Assembly (NCBI GenBank): GCA_947504205.1
Contig: CANNGL010000005.1
Coordinates: 180,751 to 244,750 of the forward strand
Reading direction: 5' to 3'
Source: an uncultured Litoreibacter sp.
Lineage (GTDB): Bacteria; Pseudomonadota; Alphaproteobacteria; Rhodobacterales; Rhodobacteraceae
DNA: 64,000 nt
Position numbers and translations under genes: made by a program. This document shows, in pieces, positions 1-36,334 of this stretch (position 1 is its first letter; every line of letters begins with the position of its first letter). The notes beneath the pieces were generated by a model. The model ran no database searches and was not told the origin of the DNA. It worked only from the letters and a program-made list of their open reading frames with translations.

Positions 1-359
1 GTTGACTTCCCAACGCCGCCCTTCCCCGAGGCGATCGCGATAATGCGGTCGACACCCGGAATTTTCTCGGGTCCGGTCGGTTCTGCCTTTGATCCGGCTT
101 TCAGATCTGGCGGTGCGCTGGGTTTGCTATGCGCAGTCATAACGATGGAAACCGAGGTCGCGCCAAGTGCCTTCAGTTTTTCCTCGGCTTCGGCTTTGGC
201 TTGCAGGTATGGCTCAGGACTTGCAACTTCCATTACGAAACGGACCGCATCCAGATCGACGTTGAGCGCTCGGACGAGGCCCGCTTCAACCAAATCGCTC
301 CCCGAAGGATCTTTGATACTCTTCAGACACTCCAGGACTTGTTCGCGTGTTATGCTCAC
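1..359 (-). CDS. Mrp/ApbC-family P-loop ATPase, N-terminal part (cut by window edge)
   Basis: This is the first ~119 residues of an Mrp/ApbC/NBP35-type protein, a soluble ATPase that carries or transfers Fe-S clusters. Translation from the GTG at 359 gives an N-terminal MIP18/DUF59-like domain (about residues 1-85) and a linker, then the deviant Walker A segment GKGGVGKS at the window edge. The GTG directly follows the TAA of the upstream gene (360-362), so the two are cotranscribed. An Fe-S loading factor fits beside a locus rich in Fe-S proteins. The rest of the ATPase domain lies outside the window, so membership is firm but the precise orthologue is not. Confidence 0.88.
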   Translation of the reverse strand, partial: MSITREQVLECLKSIKDPSGSDLVEAGLVRALNVDLDAVRFVMEVASPEPYLQAKAEAEEKLKALGATSVSIVMTAHSKPSAPPDLKAGSKAEPTGPEKIPGVDRIIAIASGKGGVGKS

Positions 360-31324: not shown

Positions 31325-31759
31325 TTAGAAGTCCTTCGCAAACTTCATCCGGCTTAGTTCGGTCAAGGTGTAGTCGCGCGCGTCGACGCCCAATTGAGAC
31401 GCCAGCGCCTGCTCGCCGGGCGAGACGTGGCCAGCCGCCATCGGGCGCTTGCCATGAAGCTTGTTCATTTCCACTTCAATGACGGAGGCCTTTCCTGTGC
31501 TTTTAGCGGCCATCATCCGCACGATCTCGGAATGTGAGTAGTCGTCTGTCGAGACTGCGGCGCGCGCTGCCAAGGCAAGATGCGCAATTGTTGGCCCTGA
31601 GAGCGACTTGCGGCGTTCGATGGCGTCGAGCCGACTCTTTTGACCGTGAATCTCGGCAGGGGAAACCCCAGAACCACGCTCGTCCGTAACGGACTGGGCA
31701 GGTGCAGAGGTGCAGATCGCTGCAAGGCCGAGCGTTGTGAAGAAAATTTGTTTGAACAT
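31325..31759 (-). CDS. Small exported hypothetical protein
   Basis: A 144-residue protein. ATG 31759 is preceded by AGGAGAG at the right distance and opens a good signal peptide (FKQIFFTTLGLAAICTSAPA). The mature part contains two related segments, DDYSHSEIVRMMAAKSTGK and DARDYTLTELSRMKFA, each with the pattern Y-[ST]-x-[ST]-E-[IL]-x-R-M. That suggests an internal duplication. It is divergent from the SARP-like regulator gene, and the direct-repeat ladder at 31822-31892 lies between them, so the regulator may control it. Function unknown. Confidence 0.75.
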   Translation of the reverse strand: MFKQIFFTTLGLAAICTSAPAQSVTDERGSGVSPAEIHGQKSRLDAIERRKSLSGPTIAHLALAARAAVSTDDYSHSEIVRMMAAKSTGKASVIEVEMNKLHGKRPMAAGHVSPGEQALASQLGVDARDYTLTELSRMKFAKDF

Positions 31760-31821
31760 TGGGAACTCTCCTCTTTTTTGTGCGCCAAACATCAGGCGCT
31801 GCAACACCGTGCCAAACTGTC

Positions 31822-31892
31822 TGGGAACGAAGCGGGCCCAATTTGGGGATTTAACGGGAACATCGCCGGTGTGACCGGGAAAAAAGCGGGAA
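31822..31892. promoter_or_regulatory. Ladder of (C/T)GGG direct repeats on an 11-bp period
   Basis: (C/T)GGG starts at 31822, 31833, 31844 and 31855, exactly 11 bp apart, and again at 31876 and 31887, also 11 bp apart. A weaker CCGG lies at 31866-31869. Four units extend to [CT]GGGAA (31822, 31855, 31876, 31887). One-turn spacing places all sites on the same face of DNA. The array lies in the divergent promoter region of a SARP-like regulator and a small exported protein. SARP proteins are known to bind short direct repeats spaced 11 or 22 bp, so this is a candidate operator. Confidence 0.6.
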
Positions 31893-31960
31893 TACGAAAC
31901 CAGAGCCGGTCCCTCGATTTGGAGATTTTGGGATTCTGTACGATATTACCTAGATTATTA

Positions 31961-33619
31961 GTGATCAGGAAAATTGTTTTGGATACGCATTATCGCCTTA
32001 GTCTTTGGGGAACGTTACGGTTAATTGATCCGTCTGGAAAAGACGTTTCCCCAAAGGGAGCAAAGGCTCAGGGATTATTGGCAATTCTTGCCACCCGTAA
32101 AGGCTGTCCCATGAGTAGGTCGGCCCTCCAAGACTTGCTTTGGAGCGACCGCGGACCAACGCACGGGCGTGACTCGCTCAAGAAGTGTATTGCGGCTCTT
32201 CGGAAATGCTTTGGTGAAGATGGTCAATATGTCATTGAGACCAGTGGCGGCCCGGTCGCGTTGAACATGTCCATGGTCTCGGTCGACCTGTTTGAAACGG
32301 GAGCAACTGGCTCAGGTCAAATCGGGCCGTGTCAGTTTCTTGACGGCATTGATGTCCGCGACCCCGAATTCGAGGACTGGCTACGGGCTATCCGACGTTC
32401 GCTTGACACACCTGACAACCACGGCACGATCCTGCACGGTCAGTCGGCGCGACAGCAATTTCACGTTGCATTGATGCCTCCCGTGACAGCATCATCTGAT
32501 GATTTCGCGATGCTTCTGGCGGAGTTGCTTTTCGACCGCATAGCTATAGCAATGCGCAGCTACGATGTTTTTAAAATACTTGATTTCCGGAAGGCGCGGG
32601 AGAACGAAGTACGCGGTGCCGATATCGTTCTTGAACTCCGGGCCCTAACACTGGGCGATGAGGTTTCGCTGAACCTGATGGCGCGTCAATTGCCGGATAA
32701 CGAAATTGTTTGGGGACATCGCCAGTCTTTGCCCAAAAGTGGCGTGGTTTCCTCACGGATAGGCACGTTGGTGGTTGAGGTCGTTGACGCTATGGCTTTA
32801 GCTTTCCGGCGCACACACGGATTAGGTTCCGAACGTAATCGTGCAGCGCAGCACGCAATGGACGGTATCGAGCGCATCTTTCGAATTCGAGATGAGCAAC
32901 TCGATAGTGCCGCGGCTTCGCTTCGGGCAGCCATCGACCTCGACCCATCGCGCTCCACCTATCGGGCGTGGTACGCGTTTCTACACGCGTTTCGGTTGGA
33001 GAACTCGAAAGGTGCGAACCTAGGCGATCTGCGCCGATATACCCATGACATTGCTCGACAGGCGCTCGAGATTGATCCGCACAATCCGGTAACGCGCTCG
33101 CTTCTTGCGCATGTTTATGCCTTTGTGGCGCAAGACTTCGGACGGGCCCATGCCATGCTCGACCCGCTTCAGGGTAAAACACCGGATATTCCGTTCTATT
33201 TCATGTCTCGGGCGATGTTGGATATCTACTCAGGGCGGATGGAAGCCGCTCGTCAGGCTATCCGACCTCTGGAGGACTATCCGTCCAACGGCATTGGTGC
33301 CGGTATGATCCTGACGACACGCAGCATGGCCGAGCTAGGTTGTGGGAATGTACATAAGTCCATCGCGCTGGCTGAGCATGCCCGGCAAACGCGCGTCGAA
33401 CCGGACGTATTCTACGAACCGAACTTAAGGTATCTTGTTGCCGGCCAAGTTCGCGTCGGCAACTTTGCACGCGCGCGAGAGGTTTTGGGCACATTACAAG
33501 AGCAGTCGCCCGAGCACTACACCGATGCGCTGGCCAGCCGCGCCTTCATGACGCCAAGCCGCCACGTGGCGGAGATGATGCCCTCACCAGAGCAACTGCC
33601 TCGCTTGCTGGCAAACTGA
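31961..33619 (+). CDS. SARP-like transcriptional regulator with C-terminal TPR-type domain
   Basis: About 552 residues. The N-terminus (from YRLSLWGTLRLIDPSGKDV near residue 11) is an OmpR/SARP-type winged helix: KGAKAQGLLAILATRKG, SRSALQDLLWSDRG, then SLKKCIAALRKCFGEDGQYV. A middle region (FAMLLAELLFDRIAIAMRSYDVF) resembles that found in adenylate-cyclase-like/TPR regulators. From ~300 on there are helical repeats of TPR type (AAASLRAAIDLDPSRSTYRAW, RQALEIDPHNPVTRSLLAHV, key parts given). GTG 31961 is my preferred start; GTG 31871 and TTG 31979 are alternatives and no clear ribosome site is seen. It precedes the PAP2 and protease genes by 17 bases and likely regulates them. Confidence 0.78.
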   Translation: MIRKIVLDTHYRLSLWGTLRLIDPSGKDVSPKGAKAQGLLAILATRKGCPMSRSALQDLLWSDRGPTHGRDSLKKCIAALRKCFGEDGQYVIETSGGPVALNMSMVSVDLFETGATGSGQIGPCQFLDGIDVRDPEFEDWLRAIRRSLDTPDNHGTILHGQSARQQFHVALMPPVTASSDDFAMLLAELLFDRIAIAMRSYDVFKILDFRKARENEVRGADIVLELRALTLGDEVSLNLMARQLPDNEIVWGHRQSLPKSGVVSSRIGTLVVEVVDAMALAFRRTHGLGSERNRAAQHAMDGIERIFRIRDEQLDSAAASLRAAIDLDPSRSTYRAWYAFLHAFRLENSKGANLGDLRRYTHDIARQALEIDPHNPVTRSLLAHVYAFVAQDFGRAHAMLDPLQGKTPDIPFYFMSRAMLDIYSGRMEAARQAIRPLEDYPSNGIGAGMILTTRSMAELGCGNVHKSIALAEHARQTRVEPDVFYEPNLRYLVAGQVRVGNFARAREVLGTLQEQSPEHYTDALASRAFMTPSRHVAEMMPSPEQLPRLLAN

Positions 33620-33636
33620 AATCTTGGAGCGTGACT

Positions 33637-34605
33637 ATGACCAGTGGATCAAAATCGAAACCCGAGAAGAACTGTGCCTACACAGAGACGTCCTATCTGT
33701 CCTCAAACCTTCGGCTCACGCGCCGCGGCGATCTTGTGGGATTTCGCCAAGAAAAGGGCAAAAAGGAGGATGGGCCGCGCGCGAACATGACGCTTTCATT
33801 AGCTGTCGCCTTGGCGGGGCCTCAAGCCCAAGCCCAAGCCCAAGCCCAAGCGCAAGCCCAAGCTCAGGCCCAAGCGCAGGCACAGGCTCAGGCTCAGGCC
33901 CAAGCGCAAGCATCTGCAATTAACGGTGAGCCATTGCTTCAGCCGACGGACTCCGTTCTTGCGACATGGCCGGAATTAAGGGAGCAGGCACTTCTGACTA
34001 TTCTCAAATGCGTTGATCCGGACCCTGAGAGGCTGCCACTTCGACTTCCGCCCGGATCAGGAAGCGGTTTGGAAGCGGAATGTGTCGAATTGCGAAAGAT
34101 GGAAAAGATCCTGCGAAAGGACGATCTGCGCCAGCATGAGGTGACGCGGCAAGTGACGTCCGCGACCAACATGGACATGTTGCGACCATTAGGCATCGAA
34201 GAGCTAGGCGGGTTTCCGGCAACTCGCGATCTGATCCGGACTGTGATGCAGATCACAGAACGTATTGGTTATCTGTACAAATTACGATACGCGCGACCAC
34301 GCCCGAATTTCGTGGACACGAGGTTGCGGCCGTTTCTGTCGAACCCGCCGCACTTGTCCTACCCTTCGAACCATTCCTTCCAAAATTTTTCGGTAGCCCA
34401 CGCTATCAACCGTGCGATTCCGGAGGTGCGCGGAGCGCAAGAGCTGTTCTTTGTCGCGCAGCGCATCGCGGAGAACCGCGAATATGCCGGGATACACTAC
34501 AAGTCAGATACCGACGCAGGCCGCGATTTGGCGGCGAAGTTCGCTCCATTTCTGTTTCAGATTTGCCGGTACGAGATGTTGGCCGCGCAGCGCGAATGGT
34601 ACTAA
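33637..34605 (+). CDS. PAP2-superfamily phosphatase with (Gln-Ala)15 tract
   Basis: A 322-residue protein with all three PAP2 acid phosphatase/haloperoxidase motifs in order: K215-x6-R222-P223, P243-S-N-H246 and R281-x5-H287-x3-D291. The latter two His are the catalytic pair. Residues 63-92 are fifteen perfect Gln-Ala pairs, and the ~50 residues before them are basic and hydrophilic. Residues 51-62 are only weakly hydrophobic, so export is uncertain. TTGGAG lies 8 bases before ATG 33637. It is the middle gene of a regulator-PAP2-protease operon. The substrate is unknown: it could be a phospho-ester or vanadate-dependent chemistry, as both share this fold. Confidence 0.85.
   Translation: MTSGSKSKPEKNCAYTETSYLSSNLRLTRRGDLVGFRQEKGKKEDGPRANMTLSLAVALAGPQAQAQAQAQAQAQAQAQAQAQAQAQAQAQASAINGEPLLQPTDSVLATWPELREQALLTILKCVDPDPERLPLRLPPGSGSGLEAECVELRKMEKILRKDDLRQHEVTRQVTSATNMDMLRPLGIEELGGFPATRDLIRTVMQITERIGYLYKLRYARPRPNFVDTRLRPFLSNPPHLSYPSNHSFQNFSVAHAINRAIPEVRGAQELFFVAQRIAENREYAGIHYKSDTDAGRDLAAKFAPFLFQICRYEMLAAQREWY
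33823..33912 (+). repeat. Fifteen tandem CAR-GCN hexamers encoding (Gln-Ala)15
   Basis: A 90-bp in-frame hexamer array. Early copies are nearly identical (CAAGCC), later ones vary at third codon positions (CAG, GCG, GCT, GCA). The variation implies some age or selection on the protein, while the homogeneous 5' end suggests recent slippage. The copy number can change by slippage without breaking the frame. Confidence 0.95.
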
Positions 34606-34618
34606 GGGAGGAAGTGAG

Positions 34619-36334
34619 ATGGCTGGAAAGAGTTCTGGTTCGATGGCGTCGACGAAAAAGAATGCAAAAGGTCAAAACAGCAAAGAGGATCACCGCGCGG
34701 CACAATTGGATGAGAGGCAGTCTCCGGATCCTGATTTGGAGTACGGGTTATTCTATCTTTGGCATCTTGCTGCGATAGGATTGATCGAATGGAAGCGCAA
34801 CGGCAAGGGTGAGAAGGTAACGGAATCAAAATGTTGGTTAGTTCCAGGGAAACACAAAGGCGACGAGAAGATCACGGTCGCGATCATCGACAACGGGTGT
34901 GCCGAGGATCACCCTAACCTCAGTACCGACCGGATCAACCACGTTGAATTTTTCGCATATCCACAGGCTGCATTCTATCTGACTGACGGAAAACCCCACG
35001 CGGAAGAACTCATGCCAATCGACGAGCTTTCTTTTGCTAGGGAATTGAAAGATGAGGTGAACACGGCGTTAGAGCTTCCACGCGAAACAAGCCTGTCCCT
35101 CACTCTGGCTGAATATCTGGGCGAAAAGGATCCGTATAAAGAAATCCAGAACCCTTCCCATCGCTTTGCGTCGCACGGCACGGCTTGCGCCGGTTTAGTC
35201 GGCGGCTGTGCAACAAAGGAAGGGGATCCGTCAGCGCCACCGGATAATCCGTGGGCCATCGACTATTCAGGGGTCGATCCTTTCGCGCATATCTTGGCGA
35301 TCAATACCGTATACAATCATGAATATTGGCCGATGATCGCTGCTCTCGTATATGCCGCGCGTTCGTGCGCCGATGTCATTCTGATCCCGCGCGCGGTTGA
35401 CGACATGGCACCTCCTGCATTCACGGACGTAACGGATTTTCCATCTGCCAGCGATGATCCGCGCCACACACGTTTTCAGGAAGACACGCGTCGGTTTCGC
35501 GACAAGCAGCTTTTCGAAACAATCCTGAGGGTGATCTGCAAACATGTCCCGACTGTTGTGGCGGCCGGGAACACCGGCATTGGCGAGATGGCATATCCGG
35601 CCCGGCTTTCCACGCTTGCAAGCAGCAATGAGGACTTTCCGCTGATCACGGTAGGTGCCGTAACCGCGAGAGGTTTGCGCGCATCATATTCAGCCGGATC
35701 AAATGGGATGGTCGGCACCAAGTCGCCATTTATCTATGCCCCCAGCAACGACCACGAAACCATGACTCAGGACTTCCAGCGGTACGATGACCTGTCTTGG
35801 CGGGCTCGAAATACGCTGTCGGAAGCAGCACTGAAAAGCTATCAGGACGAACCACCATTCCTAGGTCGCCTAGAGGCCCCATTGTGCGATGCCCCCGAAG
35901 GCTCCCCACCTGAGAATGATTTCAGCCCGTATGGTATTCTCGCGATCGATATCCCCGGCCCGTGGGGATATGATAACACTGTTGGTGAGGCGCGGGATCT
36001 TGAAGATCCGTTGGCAGAATACAAACTCGACGACCCTCAGAACGTAAAGTGCCAGTCAAGATATCAGGAAAATCAACCCCGATCACTCTACGCGCTCTTT
36101 GGTGGCACATCGGCTGCGAGCGCAATCGTGGCCGGGACGATCTCTCAGATGATCCGCAGCAGTGGCAAGGGAAGTTTGAGCCGCGATGCCATAACCGACA
36201 AGTTGAGAGACACTTGGGGCAATCCTCTGAACATGGAGGAGCGCGATGCGAACGGAAGGTACGGCAAGGAGGTCGAAGGCGGTCTGACAAACGTTTTACG
36301 TGCGGCCTGCGCGATCAAGCCCACGAGTTCCTAG
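34619..36334 (+). CDS. S8 (subtilisin-type) serine protease
   Basis: A 571-residue S8 peptidase with the catalytic triad D91 (VAIIDNGCAEDHPNL), H186 (RFASHGTACAGLVGG) and S498 (LFGGTSAASAIVAG), plus oxyanion N318 (VVAAGNTG). There is no signal peptide; the first ~40 residues are hydrophilic, so the enzyme is probably cytoplasmic or exported by another route. A 95-residue insertion separates the D and H motifs, and about 130 extra residues precede the Ser motif. ATG 34619 is preceded by GGGAGGAAG. It lies 13 bases after the PAP2 gene. Target proteins are unknown. Confidence 0.9.
   Translation: MAGKSSGSMASTKKNAKGQNSKEDHRAAQLDERQSPDPDLEYGLFYLWHLAAIGLIEWKRNGKGEKVTESKCWLVPGKHKGDEKITVAIIDNGCAEDHPNLSTDRINHVEFFAYPQAAFYLTDGKPHAEELMPIDELSFARELKDEVNTALELPRETSLSLTLAEYLGEKDPYKEIQNPSHRFASHGTACAGLVGGCATKEGDPSAPPDNPWAIDYSGVDPFAHILAINTVYNHEYWPMIAALVYAARSCADVILIPRAVDDMAPPAFTDVTDFPSASDDPRHTRFQEDTRRFRDKQLFETILRVICKHVPTVVAAGNTGIGEMAYPARLSTLASSNEDFPLITVGAVTARGLRASYSAGSNGMVGTKSPFIYAPSNDHETMTQDFQRYDDLSWRARNTLSEAALKSYQDEPPFLGRLEAPLCDAPEGSPPENDFSPYGILAIDIPGPWGYDNTVGEARDLEDPLAEYKLDDPQNVKCQSRYQENQPRSLYALFGGTSAASAIVAGTISQMIRSSGKGSLSRDAITDKLRDTWGNPLNMEERDANGRYGKEVEGGLTNVLRAACAIKPTSS

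Follow-up and report, generated by a model that had tools for sequence, protein, structure and literature searches.

In the window (the entire 64,000-nucleotide stretch that was analysed), the region in front of a predicted winged-helix regulator gene carries a ladder of seven head-to-tail repeat units spaced about one helical turn apart. We interpret this ladder, with a probability of roughly 0.8 based on sequence comparison, as a multi-unit direct-repeat operator that would be bound by the product of 31979–33619 and would activate the operon encoding the regulator, a PAP2-domain protein and an S8 family protease; given that the operon includes the regulator gene, the regulator would control itself too. 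The ladder is best read as a variation on a known operator type, unusually long. The relevant features are as follows.

31822..31898, plus strand: candidate operator ladder, seven head-to-tail units (from the sequence, shuffles, and GGGAA/GTGAA units in relatives)
Ladder units 1–4, plus strand: GGGAACGAAGC (31823), GGGCCCAATTT (31834), GGGGATTTAAC (31845), GGGAACATCGC (31856)
Ladder units 5–7, plus strand: CGGTGTGACC (31867, weak, 10 bp), GGGAAAAAAGC (31877), GGGAATACGAA (31888)
31877..31892, plus strand: core 16-mer GGGAAAAAAGCGGGAA, identical in the upstream region of L167
31919..31924, plus strand: putative −35 box TTGGAG, 31 bp past the last repeat start, matching TTGACA at only 3 of 6 positions
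31942..31947, plus strand: putative −10 box GATATT, 17 bp past the putative −35 box, matching TATAAT at 4 of 6 positions
31967..31970, plus strand: putative Shine-Dalgarno sequence AGGA of the regulator gene, from the sequence
31979..33619, plus strand: regulator with winged-helix, alpha/beta and TPR domains, start TTG 31979, alternative GTG 31961 (from Pfam, AlphaFold2, Foldseek and alignment with relatives)
33631..34605, plus strand: PAP2-domain protein bearing a (QA)n dipeptide repeat at its N-terminus (Pfam PF01569, translation, and a family profile with the window among its seeds)
34412..36334, plus strand: S8 subtilisin-like protease ORF (Pfam PF00082, and a family profile with the window among its seeds); the true start is likely the in-frame ATG near 34619, past the PAP2 stop
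31325..31759, minus strand: divergent small protein MFKQIFF..., 144 residues, an ORF taken as exported in the original prediction

The original prediction described a YGGG ladder beyond chance expectation, and the sequence bears this out: YGGG starts at 31822, 31833, 31844, 31855, 31876 and 31887, with CCGG at 31866. The steps are 11, 11, 11, 11, 10 and 11 bp, so the last two units are 1 base off the phase of the first five. The four YGGG pairs at 11 bp were matched by 0 of 20,000 dinucleotide shuffles of 31808–31960, and opening the count to all periods of 6–30 bp again gave 0 of 20,000. Scored as a ladder of seven GGGAA units placed 10 or 11 bp apart, the region reaches 29 out of 35, a value equalled by none of 20,000 base shuffles (maximum 26), and is the top-scoring place on either strand of the whole window. 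The units have GGGAA in common and differ in the remainder, i.e., they are not recent duplicates.

Runs of YGGG at this spacing are nevertheless at background level in genomes: three in a row were found 7 times in the genome of the window vs 9 times in the reversed control, and four in a row 11 times, in 11 of 61 genomes (its own included), vs 13 in the reversed control. The motif-free 4-mer autocorrelation of the ladder region at a shift of 11 is unremarkable as well (equalled in 323 of 5,000 shuffles). Thus, the ladder on its own is suggestive at most, and the case for it rests on location, number of copies and conservation. Five of the ten other four-in-a-row sites were inspected by eye, and none of these five appeared to precede a regulator of this kind. 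In another alphaproteobacterial genome (L150:1501-1537, minus strand), TGGGACA recurs at 11-bp intervals, flanked by two ORFs that by eye resemble phage-type integrases, perhaps as an arm-site array. Pairs of GGGAA at 11 bp number 11 in the window's own genome vs 2 in the reversed control, and 35 vs 19 in four genomes together. Because 9 of the 10 other pairs in the own genome fall within stop-free frames of at least 120 codons, we claim no regulon; the sole other pair outside such frames (L199, C3:403275-403290) is a possible second target.

The view of the ladder as a helically phased operator of the downstream winged-helix regulator, which was part of the original prediction, is supported by conservation of the 11-bp period upstream of homologues, though not of every homologue. 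Among 64 non-redundant upstream regions of homologues, with the window left out, 27 contain a GTNAA direct pair at 11 bp on either strand, compared with 31 of 2,801 flank windows (1.1%); AT-rich flank windows are richer in such pairs (52 of 1,524, or 3.4%, with the windows overlapping). The pairs are forward in 7 and reverse in 22 of the 64 loci, and at each of the remaining spacings between 6 and 40 bp, a pair is present in 0–4 loci. A motif-free repeat test, in which 7-mers alike at 6 of 7 positions were sought in the region from −175 to −30, gave 27 of 64 loci at 11 bp vs 4–12 at each other spacing from 8 to 30. The GTNAA form was picked after part of the 64 regions had been viewed, and only held-out regions are free of that choice; because the motif was shaped on this set, it was tested on loci fetched later (24 loci read and 5 near-duplicates removed, leaving 19). 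Of these held-out loci, 7 of 19 carry the GTNAA pair at 11 bp, with at most one at any other spacing, or 7 of 18 after removal of L182, a partial match counted as a miss among the 19 although its region falls within the gene. The motif-free test is weaker in this set (a repeat at 11 bp in 10 of the 19, at 10 bp in 7, at 23 bp in 6 and at other spacings in 0–4). The remaining 37 of the 64 regions, including those of a rhizobial group, are without a GTNAA pair at 11 bp, and the 11-bp repeat is absent from the rhizobial group in phylogenetic footprinting of 12 aligned loci.

A search for the exact YGGG ladder upstream of the first 101 homologues yields two single pairs only (L007 and L091), both on the reverse strand; since the unit differs by clade, a search of the homologues with YGGG alone is misleading. 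The repeat-bearing relatives mostly have 2–3 units, compared with 6–7 in the window. Judged by eye in an alignment of ten loci, the repeat block, which contains GTGAAAAAAGTGTGAAGG, is among the two best-conserved upstream blocks in seven relatives from the window's own genus (L019-L024 and L030), the other being closer to the gene; the repeat block is missing in L016 and L017 and partial in L025. In L104, L076 and their kin, a CAAC element precedes the first CGTNAA repeat by approximately 10 bp; by eye, it is a third, weaker unit and may overlap the regulator's own −35 box. A strong 9-bp periodicity upstream of family members was traced to the tripeptide repeats encoded by the divergent PAP2 gene and set aside.

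The window forms a clade with L166 and L167 (support 97/97), the nearest relatives found, with protein identity of at most 41% (41% for L166). In both, PAP2 and S8 genes lie downstream of the regulator on the same strand, and the PAP2 proteins contain (MA)n and (QA)n repeats. The regulator is preceded by GGGAA units at 11 bp in all three cases, namely five contiguous units in L167 (the third being GGGCG), two in L166 and seven in the window. The core 16-mer is the longest substring common to the window and L167, compared with at most 11 in 100 shuffles. The units of the sister group are GTGAA or mixed (L123, L124 and L125, where GTGAA/GGGAA units are in the forward orientation) or GTCAA/GTTAA (L165), and no repeat unit was seen upstream in L164, which belongs to the wider clade. 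The unit thereby tracks the regulator clade, with GGGAA in the window, L166, L167 and partly L123, and GTGAA in L124, L125, L013 and L019.

The orientation of the repeats is linked to the location of the PAP2 gene. With the GKNAA form, the 15 loci that have PAP2 on the regulator strand (window included) show forward repeats in 6, both orientations in 1, reverse in 1 and none in 7, whereas the 34 loci with divergent PAP2 show reverse repeats in 17, both in 1, forward in 2 and none in 14; the 16 loci with no placed PAP2 have reverse repeats in 2 and none in 14. Fisher's test on forward and reverse loci gives p = 0.0008 for GKNAA and 0.003 for strict GTNAA, with the qualification that related sequences are non-independent and that the link between forward repeats and the same strand depends on two clades. 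The repeats tend to point at PAP2, i.e., apparently at the regulator-PAP2 operon when both are on the same strand and at PAP2 itself when it is divergent. This tracking makes the regulator-PAP2-protease operon a likely target and so favors the control of the PAP2/protease operon proposed originally.

The distance to the promoter also follows a rule in many relatives. In 15 of the 19 loci with reverse repeats, a TTGAC box is found 30–32 bp past the last repeat start (expectation, 0.0008 per position), but in only 2 of the 6 held-out reverse loci. The −35-like box has a similar offset in the window (TTGGAG, 31), L167 (TTGACA, 32) and L124 (TTGATT, 31), but the offset varies in the window's own clade (TTTACG at 19 in L123, TTGACG at 36 in L125 and TTGACA at 44 in L165). 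All promoters here are predicted.

The regulator itself matches Trans_reg_C of Pfam below the cut-off (23.2 vs 26.2 bits), and TPRs were also found. Its AlphaFold2 model (mean pLDDT of 85 for the whole protein and 88 for the N-terminal part) consists of a winged helix (residues ~1–105), a helix (129–143), an alpha/beta domain (~161–280) and TPR helices; the motif RDPEFEDW (127–134) is invariant across 42 family proteins and is not so in L123-L125. In Foldseek searches, the N-terminal model matches AfsR (8hvr_I, E 1.3e-5) and EmbR (2ff4_A; 102 columns, 2.6 A, 24% identity), and its alpha/beta part matches the lipoprotein GNA1162, PelC, TolB and CsgG. The top Foldseek match of the whole model is the periplasmic domain of CadC (E 1.7e-6), a loose fit with a TM score of 0.25 of the query and an rmsd of 17.9. 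By sequence, the best PDB match is the ToxR DNA-binding domain (weak, E 0.007), and the match to the HilA family of NCBIfam is weak as well (17.8 bits vs a cut-off of 589). No BTAD domain was detected in the window regulator at E 0.001 or in the 42 family members, the window included, at E 0.01, and there is no clear membrane segment (the best 19-residue Kyte-Doolittle mean is 1.5).

These features resemble those of several known systems. SARP regulators share the OmpR-type winged helix with the window regulator, and their operators, as described for AfsR and OtcR, are direct repeats one helical turn (11 bp) apart near the controlled genes; the 11-bp spacing of the ladder is one of the two, 11 or 22 bp, that characterize them. 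In Streptomyces coelicolor, AfsR binds the afs box with one protomer per 11-bp repeat, the box being centred at −29.5, compared with −61.5 for CAP class I sites (PMC10936776). The afs box and the oxy promoters of OtcR have two repeats, with the 3′ repeat lying 8 bp away from the −10 box and the 5′ repeat over the −35 box (PMC10936776, PMC4393881). Unlike the SARP operators in those accounts, the window ladder has seven units and is placed upstream of a −35-like box. Moreover, the window regulator has an alpha/beta domain and TPRs in place of the BTAD. Therefore, of the SARP label given in the original prediction, the DNA-binding fold and the 11-bp spacing stand, whereas the domain definition, given that BTAD was not found, and the position of the repeats in relatives, upstream of the −35-like box, do not fit it.

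ToxR is membrane-bound, and the window regulator, with no clear membrane segment, differs in this respect from ToxR and CadC-like proteins. The ToxR-type tox box, TNAAA-N5-TNAAA (PMC8517210), is likewise a direct-repeat site for an OmpR-type winged helix; it has a 10-bp period and an AT-rich unit, in contrast to the 11-bp period and GGGAA unit of the ladder. The domain order, that is, a winged helix followed by an alpha/beta domain and helical repeats, may correspond to that of CadC/HilA-like proteins, with the loose fit of the CadC match as the counterpoint.

By analogy with AfsR on two repeats, we infer that the regulator binds with one winged-helix protomer on every 11-bp unit (G[T/G]GAA, or GGGAA in the window), so that the protomers would be arrayed head to tail along a single face of the DNA. 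In the window, this would produce a row of six or seven protomers that stops some three helical turns short of the −35 box, and the bound regulator would probably be an upstream (class I-like) activator, rather than a repressor, of the regulator-PAP2-S8 protease operon. Binding is expected to be cooperative, and more units would give a steeper response.

In those 15 of the 19 reverse loci, the repeats lie upstream of the −35-like box at a fixed distance and not over it, and the region upstream of −35 is the usual position of activators. Together with the tracking of the PAP2 gene by repeat orientation, this argues against the possibility that the regulator uses the ladder for (auto)repression, which we consider unlikely, though it draws on the same sequence evidence and position alone leaves the sign unfixed; in part of the divergent group, the CAAC upstream of the repeats sits, by eye, where the −35 box of the regulator could be. 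It appears improbable that a different regulator or a nucleoid protein, rather than the product of the neighboring gene, recognizes the ladder, or that the ladder works by intrinsic bending at phased A-/G-tracts. Phased GGGAA/AAAAAA tracts could indeed bend DNA, but the GTNAA pairs at 11 bp that are present in 27 of 64 upstream regions of this family are rare elsewhere on the same contigs (31 of 2,801), and the repeat unit changes together with the regulator clade.

The shuffles, the recurrence of GGGAA units in L166 and L167, the nearest relatives found, despite their low protein identity, the likeness of the units in GGGAA only and the replication of the 11-bp period in held-out loci make it very improbable that the ladder is a functionless product of chance or of local tandem duplication, a reading with which the background frequency of YGGG runs, both four-in-a-row in 61 genomes and three-in-a-row in the own genome, would agree. 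We give the least credence to a coding origin, with the regulator starting upstream of 31822 or at GTG 31871, the alternative start raised originally. The reading frame of the regulator is open from 31640 on, but homologues align only from about TTG 31979, and the 11-bp period shifts the frame at every unit, i.e., is not a codon repeat; hence the region is most likely non-coding, as the original prediction had assumed. TTG 31979, with AGGA at 31967–31970, gives an N-terminus resembling those of the relatives, and it lies 8–11 residues ahead of the first conserved glycine, as a start codon does in L124 and L125.

Homologues of the regulator were found in 28 of 41 genomes among relatives (E 0.001), in 8 of the 394 family genomes searched (E 1e-35) and in 29 of 390 from the order (E 1e-50, with the profile of the window's clade), the own genome being included in each count, and at no fewer than 76 loci in a wider search of genome contigs. 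A second orthologue at E 1e-20 was found neither in the 2 genomes searched from the genus of G176 nor in the 9 from that of G042. Among 65 non-redundant loci, the window being one of them, 50 encode a PAP2-domain protein next to the regulator, mostly with di- or tripeptides repeated at its N-terminus, and by our reading 48 of the 50 also encode an S8 protease; the profiles for this neighbor search were seeded from some of the very loci scanned, and Pfam was applied to ten chosen proteins. In 15 loci, the window among them, the PAP2 gene lies downstream of the regulator and shares its strand; it is divergent in 34 and placed otherwise in L095. Most of these PAP2 proteins start with perfect repeats, and the unit varies by genome, with more than 25 different units by our reading (QA in the window; SR, SK, NK, MA, GGV, NSQ, NHQ, NAE, GYS and others elsewhere). 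The codons of the QA repeat in the window are mixed (CAA/CAG and GCC/GCG/GCT/GCA), and this variety speaks for selection on the protein and not for slippage alone. Loci with a repeat-bearing PAP2 include L123, L125, L104, L076, L090, L050, L191 and L192. In a library of anti-phage proteins, the PAP2 protein had a single weak match, to ZorG (E 0.0044), located on its repeat, and this candidate was set aside.

A broader reading, which we offer tentatively and consider somewhat doubtful, is that the ladder controls an undescribed conserved alphaproteobacterial module composed of a cytoplasmic winged-helix/alpha-beta/TPR regulator, a repeat-containing PAP2 protein and a subtilisin-like protease. 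In such a module, the protease might process the repeat-PAP2 protein or be processed with it, and the number of 11-bp units could be a dial on a one-face regulator filament. In the open-licence papers searched, as judged by title and the start of the abstract, we found no such proteobacterial regulator, operator or module. The ladder thus offers a candidate operator, with rules of orientation and distance, for a widespread regulator family outside actinobacteria, as well as a handle on the strange repeat-PAP2/protease module next to these regulators. Naturally occurring ladders of 2, 3, 5 and 7 units in phase would be a ready series for relating operator length to cooperativity.

The suggestion that the ladder also controls the divergent exported protein found no support. 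In L123 and L125, that side of the regulator is occupied by an animal-type haem peroxidase gene (L123:9576-11390, Pfam An_peroxidase; L125:9450-11288, by eye), and in L191, by eye, by other genes; the MFKQIFF ORF was not seen beside the regulator in these three relatives, all inspected by eye. The 144-residue protein (31325–31759) has no Pfam match. It ends in the motif YTLTELSRM, and an akin sequence, YSLSELGQI, is present in a small ORF on the other strand upstream of the L191 regulator.
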